IMG/VR virus record: IMGVR_UViG_3300005842_000004
Span: 1 to 64,000 of that record
Origin: a virus
DNA length: 64,000 nt
Reading direction: 5' to 3' (one strand)
Of the stretch, positions 6,250 to 46,719 are shown piece by piece. Below the pieces are notes generated by a model. It was given only the letters and a program-made list of their open reading frames with translations, searched no databases and was not told where the DNA came from. Within the stretch, counting starts at the first letter, position 1, and each line of letters opens with the position of its first letter. The position numbers were made by a program, and so were the translations under genes.

Positions 6250-6281
6250 ACTCTACTCGACTCCGGAGCGGTTGTCAACCG
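6250..6281 (-). promoter_or_regulatory. operator-promoter, leftward (site 1)
   Basis: On the minus strand TTGACA (6278-6273) and TAGAGT (6255-6250) are 17 bp apart. The -35 box lies inside the perfect 13-bp palindrome CGGTTGTCAACCG (6269-6281). Same layout as sites at 7289, 12937 and 46653. It overlaps the 3' end of the HTH gene and would drive the gene starting at 6167 and the helicase operon. Palindrome over the -35 implies repression by a phage or host repressor (inference). Confidence 0.65.
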
Positions 6282-7348: not shown

Positions 7349-10180
7349 CTAAGGTATCGGATACGCCTGCTTGGCCGGCCGCCAGATCGTCACCGTCGCC
7401 ACGTCATCAACGATCTCCAAGCCGATGACGACCCAATCACTCAGATTCAACTCCGCTTCCTCGACATCGAATGCTGCCTCGTGCAAGATCGACCTCGACC
7501 CTGCCAATATCCAAAGCGGAATCCCCTTCGTATCGGAGGCATATCGGTGCAGGGCCAAGAGTCGCGCTGCCTCAGTCATCGCATCTCGCCGATTGATTAA
7601 TGCAGTCTGGCGGATCTTGGATATCGCAGTCGGGTATCGTCCGGCCGCACCCGTCGCCGTGGCCTTGATCGAATAGTCTTGCTTGACCGCGGGGCGATCC
7701 AACATAGATCCGTAAAGGTATCGATCCGGATCAGACATGGCCAATGCCCCGGCAATGTTGGCAGGGTCCATCTTGCTGTCATTGTGGGCGTACAGGACGG
7801 TCCACTGCCACACTGCCGGATCATGCGATTCGGGTGTGATCTCGCCGGATTGAACATCACGATTGATTGAGTATGTGGCGTCCGGTGTACCAGTCACACC
7901 GACAAATTGCTTAATGTAGATTGTCGACCCTGTCTTGTACGGGATGAACCCAAGCCCGCCCAAGATGATCCGCGAGATCTCTAACGCTGTCTCGCCCTGT
8001 CCGACATACCACCCGCAATCGGAAGGGTTGGCATTGAGACATGCCCGCCATGTCATCGAGTCGAGATCAGCGGCGAGATATCCAGCCAGGTAATAGCACT
8101 TCCGGGCCAAATCCGCCGCAGTCGATCGCCCACCCGTCCACGTCACGTTAGTCAGAGTCAATGCTGTCCCGCCCAGCATTGAGCTCGCGGATGAGCCGGT
8201 CGCATCGTCACAATGCCAGCCATAGGCTAGATTCGCTTCTGACCCCGTCGCCGGCAACATGTGCAGCGCTTGCAAGTCGGATTGACTCAGCGCCCGAGCG
8301 AATACGAGCGGCTCGTCATATCGGCCTTCCGCTTGAGTGCCTGTCGTAGAGTCCGGCCGGCATCCGATCCCGAACGCGGTACGGGTTGTCGAGAATGTCC
8401 CCGTAATCGTCACCACCGCCGATGACAGAGTGCCATTGACCCAGACAGCCAGCGTCGCCCCGGTCGTGGCGGTGTTCCCGGCTTGGTTCATATTGCGGAC
8501 CAAGGCGAGAGAGTAGGTCGTCCCTTCGGATAGATTCGGCCCTGATGATGTGGTGAAGATCGTCCCGGCATCATTGATGCAGAACGCTTCGAGACAGTTT
8601 GCGCCGCCTGTTGACTTGAGCCGGAGAATGATCGATCCGGCCGACGCTGAGGTCTGCCATCCCATGAGGACATAAGAGGCTCCGGTGTGGGACTTGGACG
8701 GGGTGTATTGACAAGTCAGAGTGCACGATCCGTTGACCGAGTTTATCGTTGCCAGGACGGTCGAAGTCGAGATGATGGACAGGGCGGAATTCCAGAAGTT
8801 ATTCCCCGTCACTGTCGCTGAATACGTCCCGGACAATGCGCCGGATGTGATCTGGAATGTGCCAGCGGCGAGGTTGGGTGTCCAGATGGCGCCGAGCGCA
8901 TTATGTCCAGATTGGACTTCAGATATCAGCGCTGCGCCACCATAGGACACTTCACCTATCTGATTGACCGGATCGACCCATGACACCGGGACTCTCGATA
9001 CCGTGCCGAGAACGTACGGGCGGAAATTCCCTGCGATCGATTGCCAGGCCCAGCTCGCAGTATCCCAGGTTACGGATGCGTCAGCGGTACCGGTTAGAGC
9101 TGAGCCGGACTTGCGATCATGGATGGTTGACCCGACTCCCTCATCGCCCGGAAAATAAGCCAAGAGTCCGGATGCCGAGGGGAGGACAGGTTGACGGGAT
9201 TCGGCATACATTGCGGCGACAGTCTTGGCCGAATTCCAGTACGTCCATCGCGATAATTTTCCCTTCAACCCTTTGCCCATCGTCAGAGAGATCGAGTTGG
9301 CTGAGGGCGATCCGGCGATAGACGATGACGATACGACCGACACCCCGTCGACTCCAATCTCTCGTGTACCCGCTGCGGTGTTGACGCTGAATGACAGATA
9401 GTGCCATTGCCGTGCGTGGAGAGGGGAAGCGATCGAGGTTAATGGAGACGGGGTCTGACCTCGAATCGTCATGCCCAACGCCACCCCGGCATCGAACACA
9501 TATCCAGTCGAGCCGGCGGAGTCTTTGAAGAATAGGAATTGATTGGCAATGGTGGGATCGTCGAGGTTGACCCAGCCAGCCAAAGAGAAGGACGAGGTCT
9601 GGTCTAGATTGTCGCCGAGGTCGACTGTGCCGGATGACGTGCCGGGGAAGTACAGGCAGGAGGGGGAGTAGGTGACAGGTTGCAAAGGTTGGTCGAGACT
9701 ATGACTGTCGTCCCGGACAGAGATGATTGCCTTTGCGTCGCCAACTTCGGGAACACCTATGCCCCGGAGAGAGAAAAGGGGAGAGGTGAGGACATCGGAT
9801 AGATTGACTCGGGTGCCAGATGAGAGAATGCCGACAAGATAAATCTGAATCAATCTATTGTCGATCGAATTATGAATCCAAGCATCCCAATGCCCGGCGT
9901 ATTCTCGGACATCGTTGATCAGCTCTAATTGTGAGTATGTGCCGAACGCTTCCGATGGATTGAGCGGGTCGATATGTTGGGATATTTGAAGCCCGGTTGC
10001 CAGGAGAGGGGGGATGTAGGCGGCGACGGGGCCGGAAGGAGGATCGGCCCACCCGCGGCCTTGATTACCCTGGCATATCCATTCGATCGATTCAACGTTG
10101 GATGAGGAGAGATAGGCGATCGAGCAGACGACTTCTATGCGGGCAGAGGGATCGGCGAGGAGGTCGGCGAGGGTTGCCAT
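7349..10180 (-). CDS. tail-tip/receptor-binding protein with two LamG-like domains
   Basis: 943 residues. N-terminus (about 1-165) is conserved-looking tail-tip sequence. Two concanavalin-type LamG-like domains follow: about 175-370 (CLYFPGTSSGTVDLGD, FSLAGWVNLDD, WHYLSFSV) and about 490-680 (CQYTPSKSHTGASYVLMGW, YSLALVRN, RYDEPLVFARALS). The C-terminal part (about 700-943) resembles baseplate/tail hub sequence (GETALEISRIILGGLGFIPY, IWRPAKQ). LamG domains bind glycans or surface proteins, so this is the best candidate for host recognition. It is last in the leftward tail operon, 7 bases after the leader-like peptide. Confidence 0.7.
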   Translation of the reverse strand: MATLADLLADPSARIEVVCSIAYLSSSNVESIEWICQGNQGRGWADPPSGPVAAYIPPLLATGLQISQHIDPLNPSEAFGTYSQLELINDVREYAGHWDAWIHNSIDNRLIQIYLVGILSSGTRVNLSDVLTSPLFSLRGIGVPEVGDAKAIISVRDDSHSLDQPLQPVTYSPSCLYFPGTSSGTVDLGDNLDQTSSFSLAGWVNLDDPTIANQFLFFKDSAGSTGYVFDAGVALGMTIRGQTPSPLTSIASPLHARQWHYLSFSVNTAAGTREIGVDGVSVVSSSSIAGSPSANSISLTMGKGLKGKLSRWTYWNSAKTVAAMYAESRQPVLPSASGLLAYFPGDEGVGSTIHDRKSGSALTGTADASVTWDTASWAWQSIAGNFRPYVLGTVSRVPVSWVDPVNQIGEVSYGGAALISEVQSGHNALGAIWTPNLAAGTFQITSGALSGTYSATVTGNNFWNSALSIISTSTVLATINSVNGSCTLTCQYTPSKSHTGASYVLMGWQTSASAGSIILRLKSTGGANCLEAFCINDAGTIFTTSSGPNLSEGTTYSLALVRNMNQAGNTATTGATLAVWVNGTLSSAVVTITGTFSTTRTAFGIGCRPDSTTGTQAEGRYDEPLVFARALSQSDLQALHMLPATGSEANLAYGWHCDDATGSSASSMLGGTALTLTNVTWTGGRSTAADLARKCYYLAGYLAADLDSMTWRACLNANPSDCGWYVGQGETALEISRIILGGLGFIPYKTGSTIYIKQFVGVTGTPDATYSINRDVQSGEITPESHDPAVWQWTVLYAHNDSKMDPANIAGALAMSDPDRYLYGSMLDRPAVKQDYSIKATATGAAGRYPTAISKIRQTALINRRDAMTEAARLLALHRYASDTKGIPLWILAGSRSILHEAAFDVEEAELNLSDWVVIGLEIVDDVATVTIWRPAKQAYPIP

Positions 10181-10187
10181 CAGACGA

Positions 10188-10253
10188 TCAGTCCAGAGCC
10201 TGGACAGCGAGCAGGCGGATTGTTTCGCGGGTGAGCTTCAATTTACGCGACAT
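10188..10253 (-). CDS. 21-residue peptide resembling a RiPP leader without a core
   Basis: ATG with an excellent GGCGGAGG site 7 bases upstream (overlapping the stop of the tail gene), ending in TGA 7 bases before the LamG tail gene. Residues 3-20 include RKLKLTRETIRLL, which aligns with the leader of the peptide at 12668-12877 (RRLTLSRETLRNL): 9 of 19 residues are identical and several more conservative. After the stop there is no cysteine/threonine-rich core in frame. It may be a coupling peptide for the downstream gene, a relic of a precursor, or a decoy that occupies a leader-binding enzyme. Function is inference. Confidence 0.6.
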   Translation of the reverse strand: MSRKLKLTRETIRLLAVQALD

Positions 10254-10254
10254 G

Positions 10255-11763
10255 CTATCCTCCGCCTGATCTCTGGCCATTGTGATCGATCCAATGCAAC
10301 ACCATGTCCCACCTGTCTCGGGTGTGGTTCATCCCGTCAGCGAGTACGTCCGGATCGATCCCGGTAAATCGGCCTATATGTGTCTCCGCTTTCGACCCGA
10401 CGACCATCCAGCGGGGACGGGTTTGCTCATCCGAATACCCCTCGGTCATGTTCGGATCGGGGATGAGCAGAGTAGGGACGCGCATGATCCCGAGTGTGCG
10501 GATGAGACGTTCGATCGCCTGGACGGTCAATCGGGATATGCCGATGATGGTCATGTCGGCCTCGGTCCATTCCAGGGGGGATCGTCCACCGCGGAACGAG
10601 CCGGCACGGGTACGGGCAGGGGTGGAATCGGAGGCGGAGGAAAGATTCCAGCCGGAGGGGGAGGCGAGAGGGGTGATGATGGTATCGGCGGCGAGGAAAC
10701 GACCGGCGTGGAAACGGCCATCAGGATCGCCAGGATTGACAATCGACGAGTAAATGTGCGCGTTCAGCACACCGCCAATCACGCGCGTGAACGGAGTTGT
10801 CAGGTAACTATTGAATGGTCCCGGCTCGACATACACATATGTTGTGGTTGAGATCGTAATGTCGGGTCGCAGCGTAAAGCTATCCATATCGACGTTTGGA
10901 AAATCCAGCAGTCCGGAATCATAACTATATCCCGAGTGATCGAGCACCAGCTCGACGCCGATGAAGTCACAAGCAGTCGAAGTACTCAGATGCAGCTCCA
11001 TAGCTGCTGTTTGACTCGCAAGAGCAGAGGCCAAGAAAGAATAGGTGAACACGAACCCGCCGCTCGAATTGCCCACTTCGACGTGCTCTAGATCCACGTA
11101 CGATACAAGTGATATTACCGAAGATCCCGACTGCCATATCGACGCCGTGACGCTTGGGATCAAAAGCGGGTTGTTCACATCTCGCAGATGGAAGCGGACA
11201 ACGCAAGTGCCAGCTAGCGGCCGTTCGGTCGCGTAGTAATTCGCCCATGTGCCTACAATCGACGTCGCAATTGCTGGATTGGTCGGCGTCAATTTGGTCT
11301 CAGCATAGCCAACAGGCGCCGGATCATCAGGAGGATCAAGAGGATGCCCGGTGAAGTTTGCGTCAGCACCGGTGAGATTTACTTTCGAATTGAGCGTCAT
11401 CGGCGGGCGGACTCGGCTGGCGATTGGGTACGTGTCGACGATGAGTCGGAACAAGTTATTGCCGTAGGTGACACCCGGCAGCACTGCGCTCGGTGTTCTT
11501 CTGTTGATTCCGATCAAAGACACTACACCGAGATTTCTATTGACAATCACATTGTCTGATTGCGCTTGTACCCAACTGCAAGAGCTTCTATGGTTGATGG
11601 CGGACCAGTAATCGCCGAGTATGTCACCCGTCAATTTGCTCGTATCGAATCCTGGCATGGCAGACCCGGTTGTGATTGTCCACCTATCTGACGGATACAG
11701 AACTGCGCCTGTAGTCGACAAATCACGGACAGCGAAGCGGAGACCAGCAACCGGGTCAGTCAT
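10255..11763 (-). CDS. minor tail protein
   Basis: 502 residues. Beta-rich, Ser/Thr-rich with sections such as GGFVFTYSFLASALASQTAAMELHL and a C-terminal tail-like segment (LEWTEADMTIIGISRLTVQAIERLI). Called tail by position between the tape measure/lysis block and the LamG tip protein, and by composition; no specific family is recognised. Start ATG with GAAGG 6 bases upstream, 13 bases after the exported-protein gene. Confidence 0.6.
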   Translation of the reverse strand: MTDPVAGLRFAVRDLSTTGAVLYPSDRWTITTGSAMPGFDTSKLTGDILGDYWSAINHRSSCSWVQAQSDNVIVNRNLGVVSLIGINRRTPSAVLPGVTYGNNLFRLIVDTYPIASRVRPPMTLNSKVNLTGADANFTGHPLDPPDDPAPVGYAETKLTPTNPAIATSIVGTWANYYATERPLAGTCVVRFHLRDVNNPLLIPSVTASIWQSGSSVISLVSYVDLEHVEVGNSSGGFVFTYSFLASALASQTAAMELHLSTSTACDFIGVELVLDHSGYSYDSGLLDFPNVDMDSFTLRPDITISTTTYVYVEPGPFNSYLTTPFTRVIGGVLNAHIYSSIVNPGDPDGRFHAGRFLAADTIITPLASPSGWNLSSASDSTPARTRAGSFRGGRSPLEWTEADMTIIGISRLTVQAIERLIRTLGIMRVPTLLIPDPNMTEGYSDEQTRPRWMVVGSKAETHIGRFTGIDPDVLADGMNHTRDRWDMVLHWIDHNGQRSGGG

Positions 11764-12667: not shown

Positions 12668-12877
12668 TCAGATGCAACCAGTTCTTGCGGCAGAATCGAC
12701 ATGCCCACAAACAGTGAAGACGCCAGTAGGACAATTGCAATTGGTGTTGTTGCACGTCTCGGTACACCAATCAGTCGTCGTACAGCCGTCTTGATTGCTC
12801 TCGCCTCCAACGACTCGGCGTAGAGAGGATTCGGTGAGATTTCTCAGCGTCTCACGACTAAGAGTCAGCCGCCGCAT
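12668..12877 (-). CDS. lanthipeptide-like RiPP precursor peptide
   Basis: 69 residues. The ATG at 12877 follows AGGAGGTG by 8 bases, an excellent site. Leader (1-25): RRLTLSRETLRNLTESSLRR then VVGG, the pattern of class I lanthipeptide-type and related precursors (LxLxRETLRxLxxxxLxxVxGG). Core (26-69): rich in Cys and Thr, with GCTTTDWCTETC, NCNCPTG and CGHVDSAARTGCI; 7 Cys, 9 Thr, 2 Ser, consistent with thioether ring formation by dehydration and cyclisation. First gene after the operator-promoter at 12937. No maturation enzyme is visible in the window. Assignment is by motif; chemistry is inference. Confidence 0.78.
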   Translation of the reverse strand: MRRLTLSRETLRNLTESSLRRVVGGESNQDGCTTTDWCTETCNNTNCNCPTGVFTVCGHVDSAARTGCI

Positions 12878-12936
12878 TTCGCCACCTCCTGGCATTTCCC
12901 TGAGACCGGCCGTCTATTCGTCCGGTCGGCGATCAA

Positions 12937-12969
12937 ACAATACCGCGTATCCTCGGCGGTTGTCAACCG
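12937..12969 (-). promoter_or_regulatory. operator-promoter for the RiPP/tail-tip operon, leftward (site 3)
   Basis: TTGACA (12966-12961) and TATTGT (12942-12937) are 18 bp apart on the minus strand; the -35 lies in the perfect palindrome CGGTTGTCAACCG (12957-12969). Eleven bases further upstream is ACTTACGCTC, also present upstream of the promoter at 46653 and of the rightward candidate at 45649. Start of transcription is predicted near 12930, giving a leader of about 53 bases with a good ribosome binding site. Confidence 0.7.
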
Positions 12970-12995
12970 GGCGAATAGAGCGTAAGTGTCCAGGC

Positions 12996-13022
12996 CAAAA
13001 AGAGCCCCCGTCTCCGGGAGCT
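12996..13022 (-). terminator. rho-independent terminator of the lysis operon
   Basis: On the minus strand AGCTCCCG, loop GAGA, CGGGGGCT (eight pairs with one G-U) is followed by CTTTTT. It sits directly upstream of the operator-promoter at 12937, so lysis-gene transcription ends here and the RiPP operon starts anew. Confidence 0.75.
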
Positions 13023-46652: not shown

Positions 46653-46685
46653 AGAATAGGCGCATCGCTAGGCGGTTGTCAACCG
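46653..46685 (-). promoter_or_regulatory. operator-promoter, leftward (site 5)
   Basis: TTGACA (46682-46677) and TATTCT (46658-46653), spacer 18 bp, inside perfect palindrome CGGTTGTCAACCG (46673-46685). Directly upstream is ACTTACGCTC in the same relative place as at site 3; the 15 bases GAATAGAGCGTAAGT are identical in the two sites. Drives the leaderless gene at 46643. Confidence 0.66.
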
Positions 46686-46719
46686 GAGGAATAGAGCGTA
46701 AGTCAGAGGAGTCTACCCG

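Follow-up and report, generated by a model that had tools for sequence, protein, structure and literature searches.

Why should a phage encode the front half of a lanthipeptide leader and nothing of the peptide that such a leader normally precedes? The question is raised by a 21-codon open reading frame (ORF) on the minus strand of the viral record IMGVR_UViG_3300005842_000004, of which we analysed 64,000 of the 64,714 bases (hereafter the window). The virus is probably a temperate tailed phage, given a Phage_integrase match in the record together with genes for capsid, portal, terminase and DNA polymerase A; no tRNA genes were found in the 64,000-nt window. The small ORF runs from an ATG at 10253 to a TGA at 10190-10188, its product of 21 residues is MSRKLKLTRETIRLLAVQALD, and it begins one base beyond the stop codon of a 502-aa gene and is followed closely by a 943-aa gene (Table 1). 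Both of these larger genes lie downstream of a 2010-aa ORF, which we take for the tape measure, and it is on this assumption that we call their surroundings the tail region.

Table 1. Features around the small ORF, with coordinates as positions in the window.
Feature	Coordinates	Strand	Remarks
Leader-only ORF, 21 aa, without GG site or core	10188..10253	minus	
GGAGG, ribosome-binding site of the small ORF, within the final codons of the 502-aa gene	10259..10263	minus	read by eye; duplex energy -9.5
943-aa gene, Laminin_G_3 match, downstream of the slot	7349..10180	minus	starts 7 nt past the small ORF; SD -3.0 (weak)
502-aa gene, upstream of the slot	10255..11763	minus	
Lanthipeptide-like precursor, leader + GG + Cys/Thr-rich tail	12668..12877	minus	69 aa from the better start
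Promoter-like TTGACA-18-TATTGT, upstream of the precursor	12937..12966	minus	consensus match only
Terminator-like hairpin, upstream of the precursor's promoter-like site	13003..13022	minus	consensus match only

The excellent ribosome-binding site with which a first-pass annotation had credited the ORF is borne out: its SD of -9.5 kcal/mol ranks 12th among the 601 ATG ORFs of 15-40 aa in the window (nested starts counted apart), and an alternative in-frame ATG at 10280, which would give a 30-aa form, has a weak SD (-3.1). The site overlaps the codons that end the 502-aa gene (SGGG*), an ending that is present in the one close relative too, and the strong SD is thus in part a by-product of the SGGG end of that protein.

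That the peptide resembles the leader of the precursor at 12668 was the starting observation, and it stands. Aligned without gaps, the two share 9 of 18 residues (score 41), a score reached by none of 5000 shuffles of the 21-mer and by 4 of 5000 for the 30-aa form. Because this comparison had been chosen after the fact, an independent model was built from 12 leaders, with the peptide excluded, and the whole window was scanned with it. The precursor, itself a member of the model, scored 43.8 bits; two real leaders from another record (G004) outside the model scored 21.0 and 15.5 bits. Since a pattern resembling the peptide had supplied five of the model's 12 leaders, the scan was repeated with the other seven alone, and the peptide then scored 21.0 bits. 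The motif LxL[TSN][RK]E[TS][LI]RxL occurs twice in the window (peptide and precursor) and in none of 200 dinucleotide shuffles, and a loose version gave nine chance matches across 200 such shuffles, both patterns having been composed only after the hits were known. The leader box of the peptide has no broken position, and the half that it retains holds every residue found to be invariant in an alignment of eight leaders that includes the peptide.

Could a coupling ORF look like a leader by accident? The peptide is short, its likeness was spotted after the whole window had been read, and the NCBIfam model NF038153 does not match it at E<=10. Against this, the peptide scored 22.4 bits with the 12-leader model, compared with a maximum of 14.9 in 300 dinucleotide-shuffled windows; it is the window's second-best frame after the precursor, the next reaching 4.5; in the fetched loci, several of them chosen by motif from IMG/VR as a whole, no frame outside the precursors scored above 13.9; and its motif, like that of the other leaders, follows immediately on the start codon. 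We regard a chance resemblance as very improbable and take the likeness to leaders of the class I lanthipeptide type to be real.

Two of the marks of a class I precursor lie beyond the end of the ORF. It stops ahead of the GG-type cleavage site, and in place of a core with Ser/Thr and Cys there are two residues past the leader match, neither of them Ser, Thr or Cys, in agreement with the initial description of a leader without a core. In a third mark, recognition by NF038153, the peptide also falls short, the leave-out models giving the scores reported above. Read-through of the stop codon was considered as a route to a core and is ruled out, as translation past the stop would read the 943-aa gene in a wrong frame. 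Modifying enzymes were also sought. A Pfam scan of 38 ORFs of the window record (peptide and precursor included, smaller ORFs falling outside it) gave no RiPP-enzyme match at the limits used. Across seven records, the LanC cyclase family PF05147 was matched in 0/7, with a positive control that matched in 1 of 14 genomes, and the LanB dehydratase family PF04738 was matched in 0/7, in a search in which no positive control gave a match. LanC could come from the host.

Those seven records, the window's own and G001 to G006, also show how unusual a leader-only ORF is. A pattern scan of IMG/VR gave ten stretches, five of them leader-plus-core ORFs and the other five not precursors; a second pattern gave two stretches with one and the same non-precursor frame. 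Whole-record scans gave 20 hits, of which five (G005:74056, G007, G008, G009 and G010) were dropped for a motif that was fragmentary or without a nearby start codon; besides these, seven of the 15 kept hits, plus the peptide, are rows of the scanning model and match by construction. The 22.4-bit scan and the count of tail lengths used a model without the peptide. Leader-plus-core ORFs number 14 in the seven records (one in the window, one in G001, five in G002, two in G003, three in G004, one in G005 and one in G006), and all 14 continue for 26-49 residues after the leader match; of the 15 leader ORFs, only the window peptide consists of a leader alone, a proportion that describes records chosen for a leader pattern or for their relatedness to the window and is no estimate for phages at large. 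The viral status of G002 to G006 is that assigned by IMG/VR; when two proteins per record were compared with PHROGs, G002 matched an endolysin, G003 a portal, G005 a helicase and G006 a RecT-like protein, and G004 had no phage-type match. Elsewhere in this material, an ORF at L014:1513-3078 matches phrog_850 (RNA-binding protein); the record stretch that holds it also contains a portal gene and a precursor. Scattered lanthipeptide-like precursors with no LanC match number five in G002 (L012, L033, L037, L039, L040) and three in G004 (L021, L035, L038). Since such precursors occur scattered in records without a LanC match, phages may feed cores to host enzymes.

The window's own precursor is better read from the ATG at 12877 than from the annotated start at 12895 (75 aa), because its SD is -11.6 against -5.1. 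The hairpin and promoter-like site before it form what is, by consensus matching, the layout of a phage cargo gene. It had been proposed that peptide and precursor share an operon. A terminator-like site was looked for on the minus strand between the two and none was found; the precursor possesses its own promoter-like site. A common operon is plausible. We could rule out that the peptide is a recent duplicate of this precursor, because seven of the nine residues that they share are encoded by codons with a different third base.

The region before the precursor has further features. A 13-base palindrome, CGGTTGACAACCG, is found at three minus-strand sites (12957-12969, 46673-46685 and 6269-6281), and an equal number of matches, with up to three mismatches allowed, arises in 3 of 100 shuffles. 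At 12.96 and 46.68 kb the palindrome overlaps the TTGACA element of a promoter-like site, which at 46.68 kb is TTGACA-18-TATTCT (read by eye), and both the palindrome and its promoter-like context lie in a 43-base repeat (12945-12987 and 46660-46703, 89% identical). One possible role for the palindrome is that of an operator through which the precursor is co-regulated.

Whether the peptide is kept in related phages could be addressed in one close relative. Among 35 loci with relatives of TerL, only that of G001 is close (61%), the rest being at most 33%. In 20 TerL-relative contigs of at least 10 kb, G001 aside, the 502-aa family was found in 0/20, in a search without a positive control, and a leader model that included the peptide (A4) matched 0/20 of the same distant contigs at E<=0.001. 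Searching a phage collection by tblastn with the 943-aa and 502-aa proteins, the precursor and the 21-mer gave no match. Viral scans were unproductive with the 502-aa protein, gave five stretches and none confirmed with the precursor, and with two-row alignments returned G001 again and nothing else. A genome scan with the 943-aa alignment gave 63 stretches, none confirmed, and one with a close leader variant gave a single stretch, from a Dorea MAG, with 18 residues to the stop and a start codon unseen in the frame shown.

G001 encodes homologues of the 943-aa (65% identical) and 502-aa (58% identical) proteins, and the slot between them is occupied by an 80-aa ORF (L003:5733-5975) that resembles the peptide no more than chance would allow. 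Its product has only weak Pfam matches and none in NCBIfam. We also considered the peptide as a remnant of this slot protein, for which LNREILSFLGL can be set against LTRETIRLLAV, but scores as good arose in 844 of 5000 shuffles and the idea was rejected. The sole leader match in the G001 record is a precursor with a core. This lanthipeptide-like precursor (76 aa, L007:1513-1743, G001:6291-6521) lies elsewhere than that of the window; its ATG overlaps the stop codon of the ORF before it, and the ORF just after it is taken, by position, as the small terminase. Near the position of the window's precursor, G001 has a Cys-rich 159-aa protein with a signal-like N-terminus and no family match (L003:2683-3162).

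What the two slots have in common is their translational layout. In both phages the SD is strong for the slot ORF (-9.5 in the window, -12.8 in G001) and weak for the 943-aa gene (-3.0 and -3.3), and the gap from the slot ORF's stop to the start of the 943-aa gene is 7 nt in the window and 25 nt in G001. A strong SD on a small ORF, a short gap and an SD-poor next start are what a coupling ORF would show, and the layout therefore fits translational coupling, short of proving it. Dependence of the 943-aa gene on coupling is not certain, because several other starts in the window phage have equally weak SDs. An unrelated ORF in the slot of a relative had been named at the outset as the sign of a mere coupling peptide; the G001 slot does point to a coupling ORF, weakly in that it is a single relative, and leaves the leader identity of the peptide unexplained.

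The reading that we favour, as somewhat probable, is that the ORF is a truncated leader which has been retained, or at least tolerated, for its part in translational coupling. On the comparisons above, the peptide corresponds to the N-terminal half of a leader of the class I lanthipeptide type (KLxLxRETIRxL box), and the slot that it occupies varies in content while the tail-region genes on either side are conserved. A leader-bearing ORF would have entered the slot and then lost its remainder; ribosomes would load at the strong SD of the small ORF, stop at 10188 and re-initiate 7 nt on, where the 943-aa gene has its SD-poor start, and the leader sequence itself would no longer matter. That 14 of 15 leader ORFs carry a tail of 26-49 aa, the leader-only form being the exception, counts for truncation, and the absence of a relative with an intact precursor in the slot counts against it; the unbroken leader box counts against an old relic. 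The peptide would derive from another leader that lost its rest, or its protein sequence is held by selection, two origins that one relative cannot separate. Of the three readings first offered, a decayed precursor fits best, once corrected to exclude a recent copy of the window's precursor, and a decoy or a regulator of maturation found no positive evidence. A truncated leader ORF devoid of any role, coupling included, would also accommodate a single case in 15 and the unrelated content of the G001 slot; the strong-then-weak SD layout common to both phages argues against such an inert relic, to which we give a rather small chance.

The leader box is the part bound by the RRE of a LanB. A free peptide of this kind might act in trans, either filling the RRE site of a host lanthipeptide dehydratase as a decoy, by which it would block or tune the maturation of host or rival peptides, or activating an enzyme for a core from elsewhere. 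The retained half carries all the invariant residues described above, the small ORF has its strong SD, and the mostly different codons of the shared residues are what selection at the peptide level would also yield; there is, moreover, a microviridin precedent from another RiPP class (PMC5934393, in excerpt), and a review reports anti-phage lanthipeptides in Streptomyces (PMC12360287, in excerpt). Set against these are the failure of the peptide to be conserved in the slot of one relative, the lack of leader-only ORFs among the other 14 (0/14), a position among structural rather than early genes, the lack of a known target enzyme or host, and the missing NF038153 match, and we hold a function in trans to be possible and on the whole unlikely. 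The narrower proposal, that the free leader half blocks the site at which a host lanthipeptide synthetase recognises leaders, and in this way either counters defence by an anti-phage lanthipeptide or keeps the enzyme for the phage's own precursor, has in our view a low probability. Were a decoy to prove true, it would be a new route for phage action on host peptide biosynthesis; the truncated leader that we prefer, even as a leftover, has led to seven viral records, each of which has between one and five lanthipeptide-like precursors at scattered places and none of which has a LanC match.

In the open-licence PMC literature, most subscription papers lying outside the search, we did not find leader-only phage peptides described. 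The excerpts available from related reports concern RiPPs co-expressed with phage genes (PMC11118758), a complete nisin-like cluster inside a predicted prophage (PMC12506125), and host enzymes and clusters (PMC10604976, PMC10352776). A precedent for an isolated leader that acts on its enzyme is the microviridin ligase, which a minimal leader activates in trans and AMdnAi inhibits competitively; it differs from the present case, as far as the excerpted report goes, in belonging to another RiPP class, in being an in vitro system and in involving no phage gene (PMC5934393).

Two other known systems come close in sequence or layout. Short ORFs can couple translation via re-initiation, and the slot ORF resembles them in its strong SD, its shortness and the nearby SD-poor downstream start; it differs in being recognisable as a leader, and re-initiation would here be deduced from the layout. 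With the class I lanthipeptide leader described by NF038153 (lant_leader_L1a), the peptide shares a KLxLxRETLRxL-type box directly behind the start; the window's precursor matches that model at 17.2-18.0 bits, still below the cut-off of 22, and the peptide, which has neither GG site nor core, gives no match to the model even at E<=10. The peptide is a known leader type in an unusual, core-less form.
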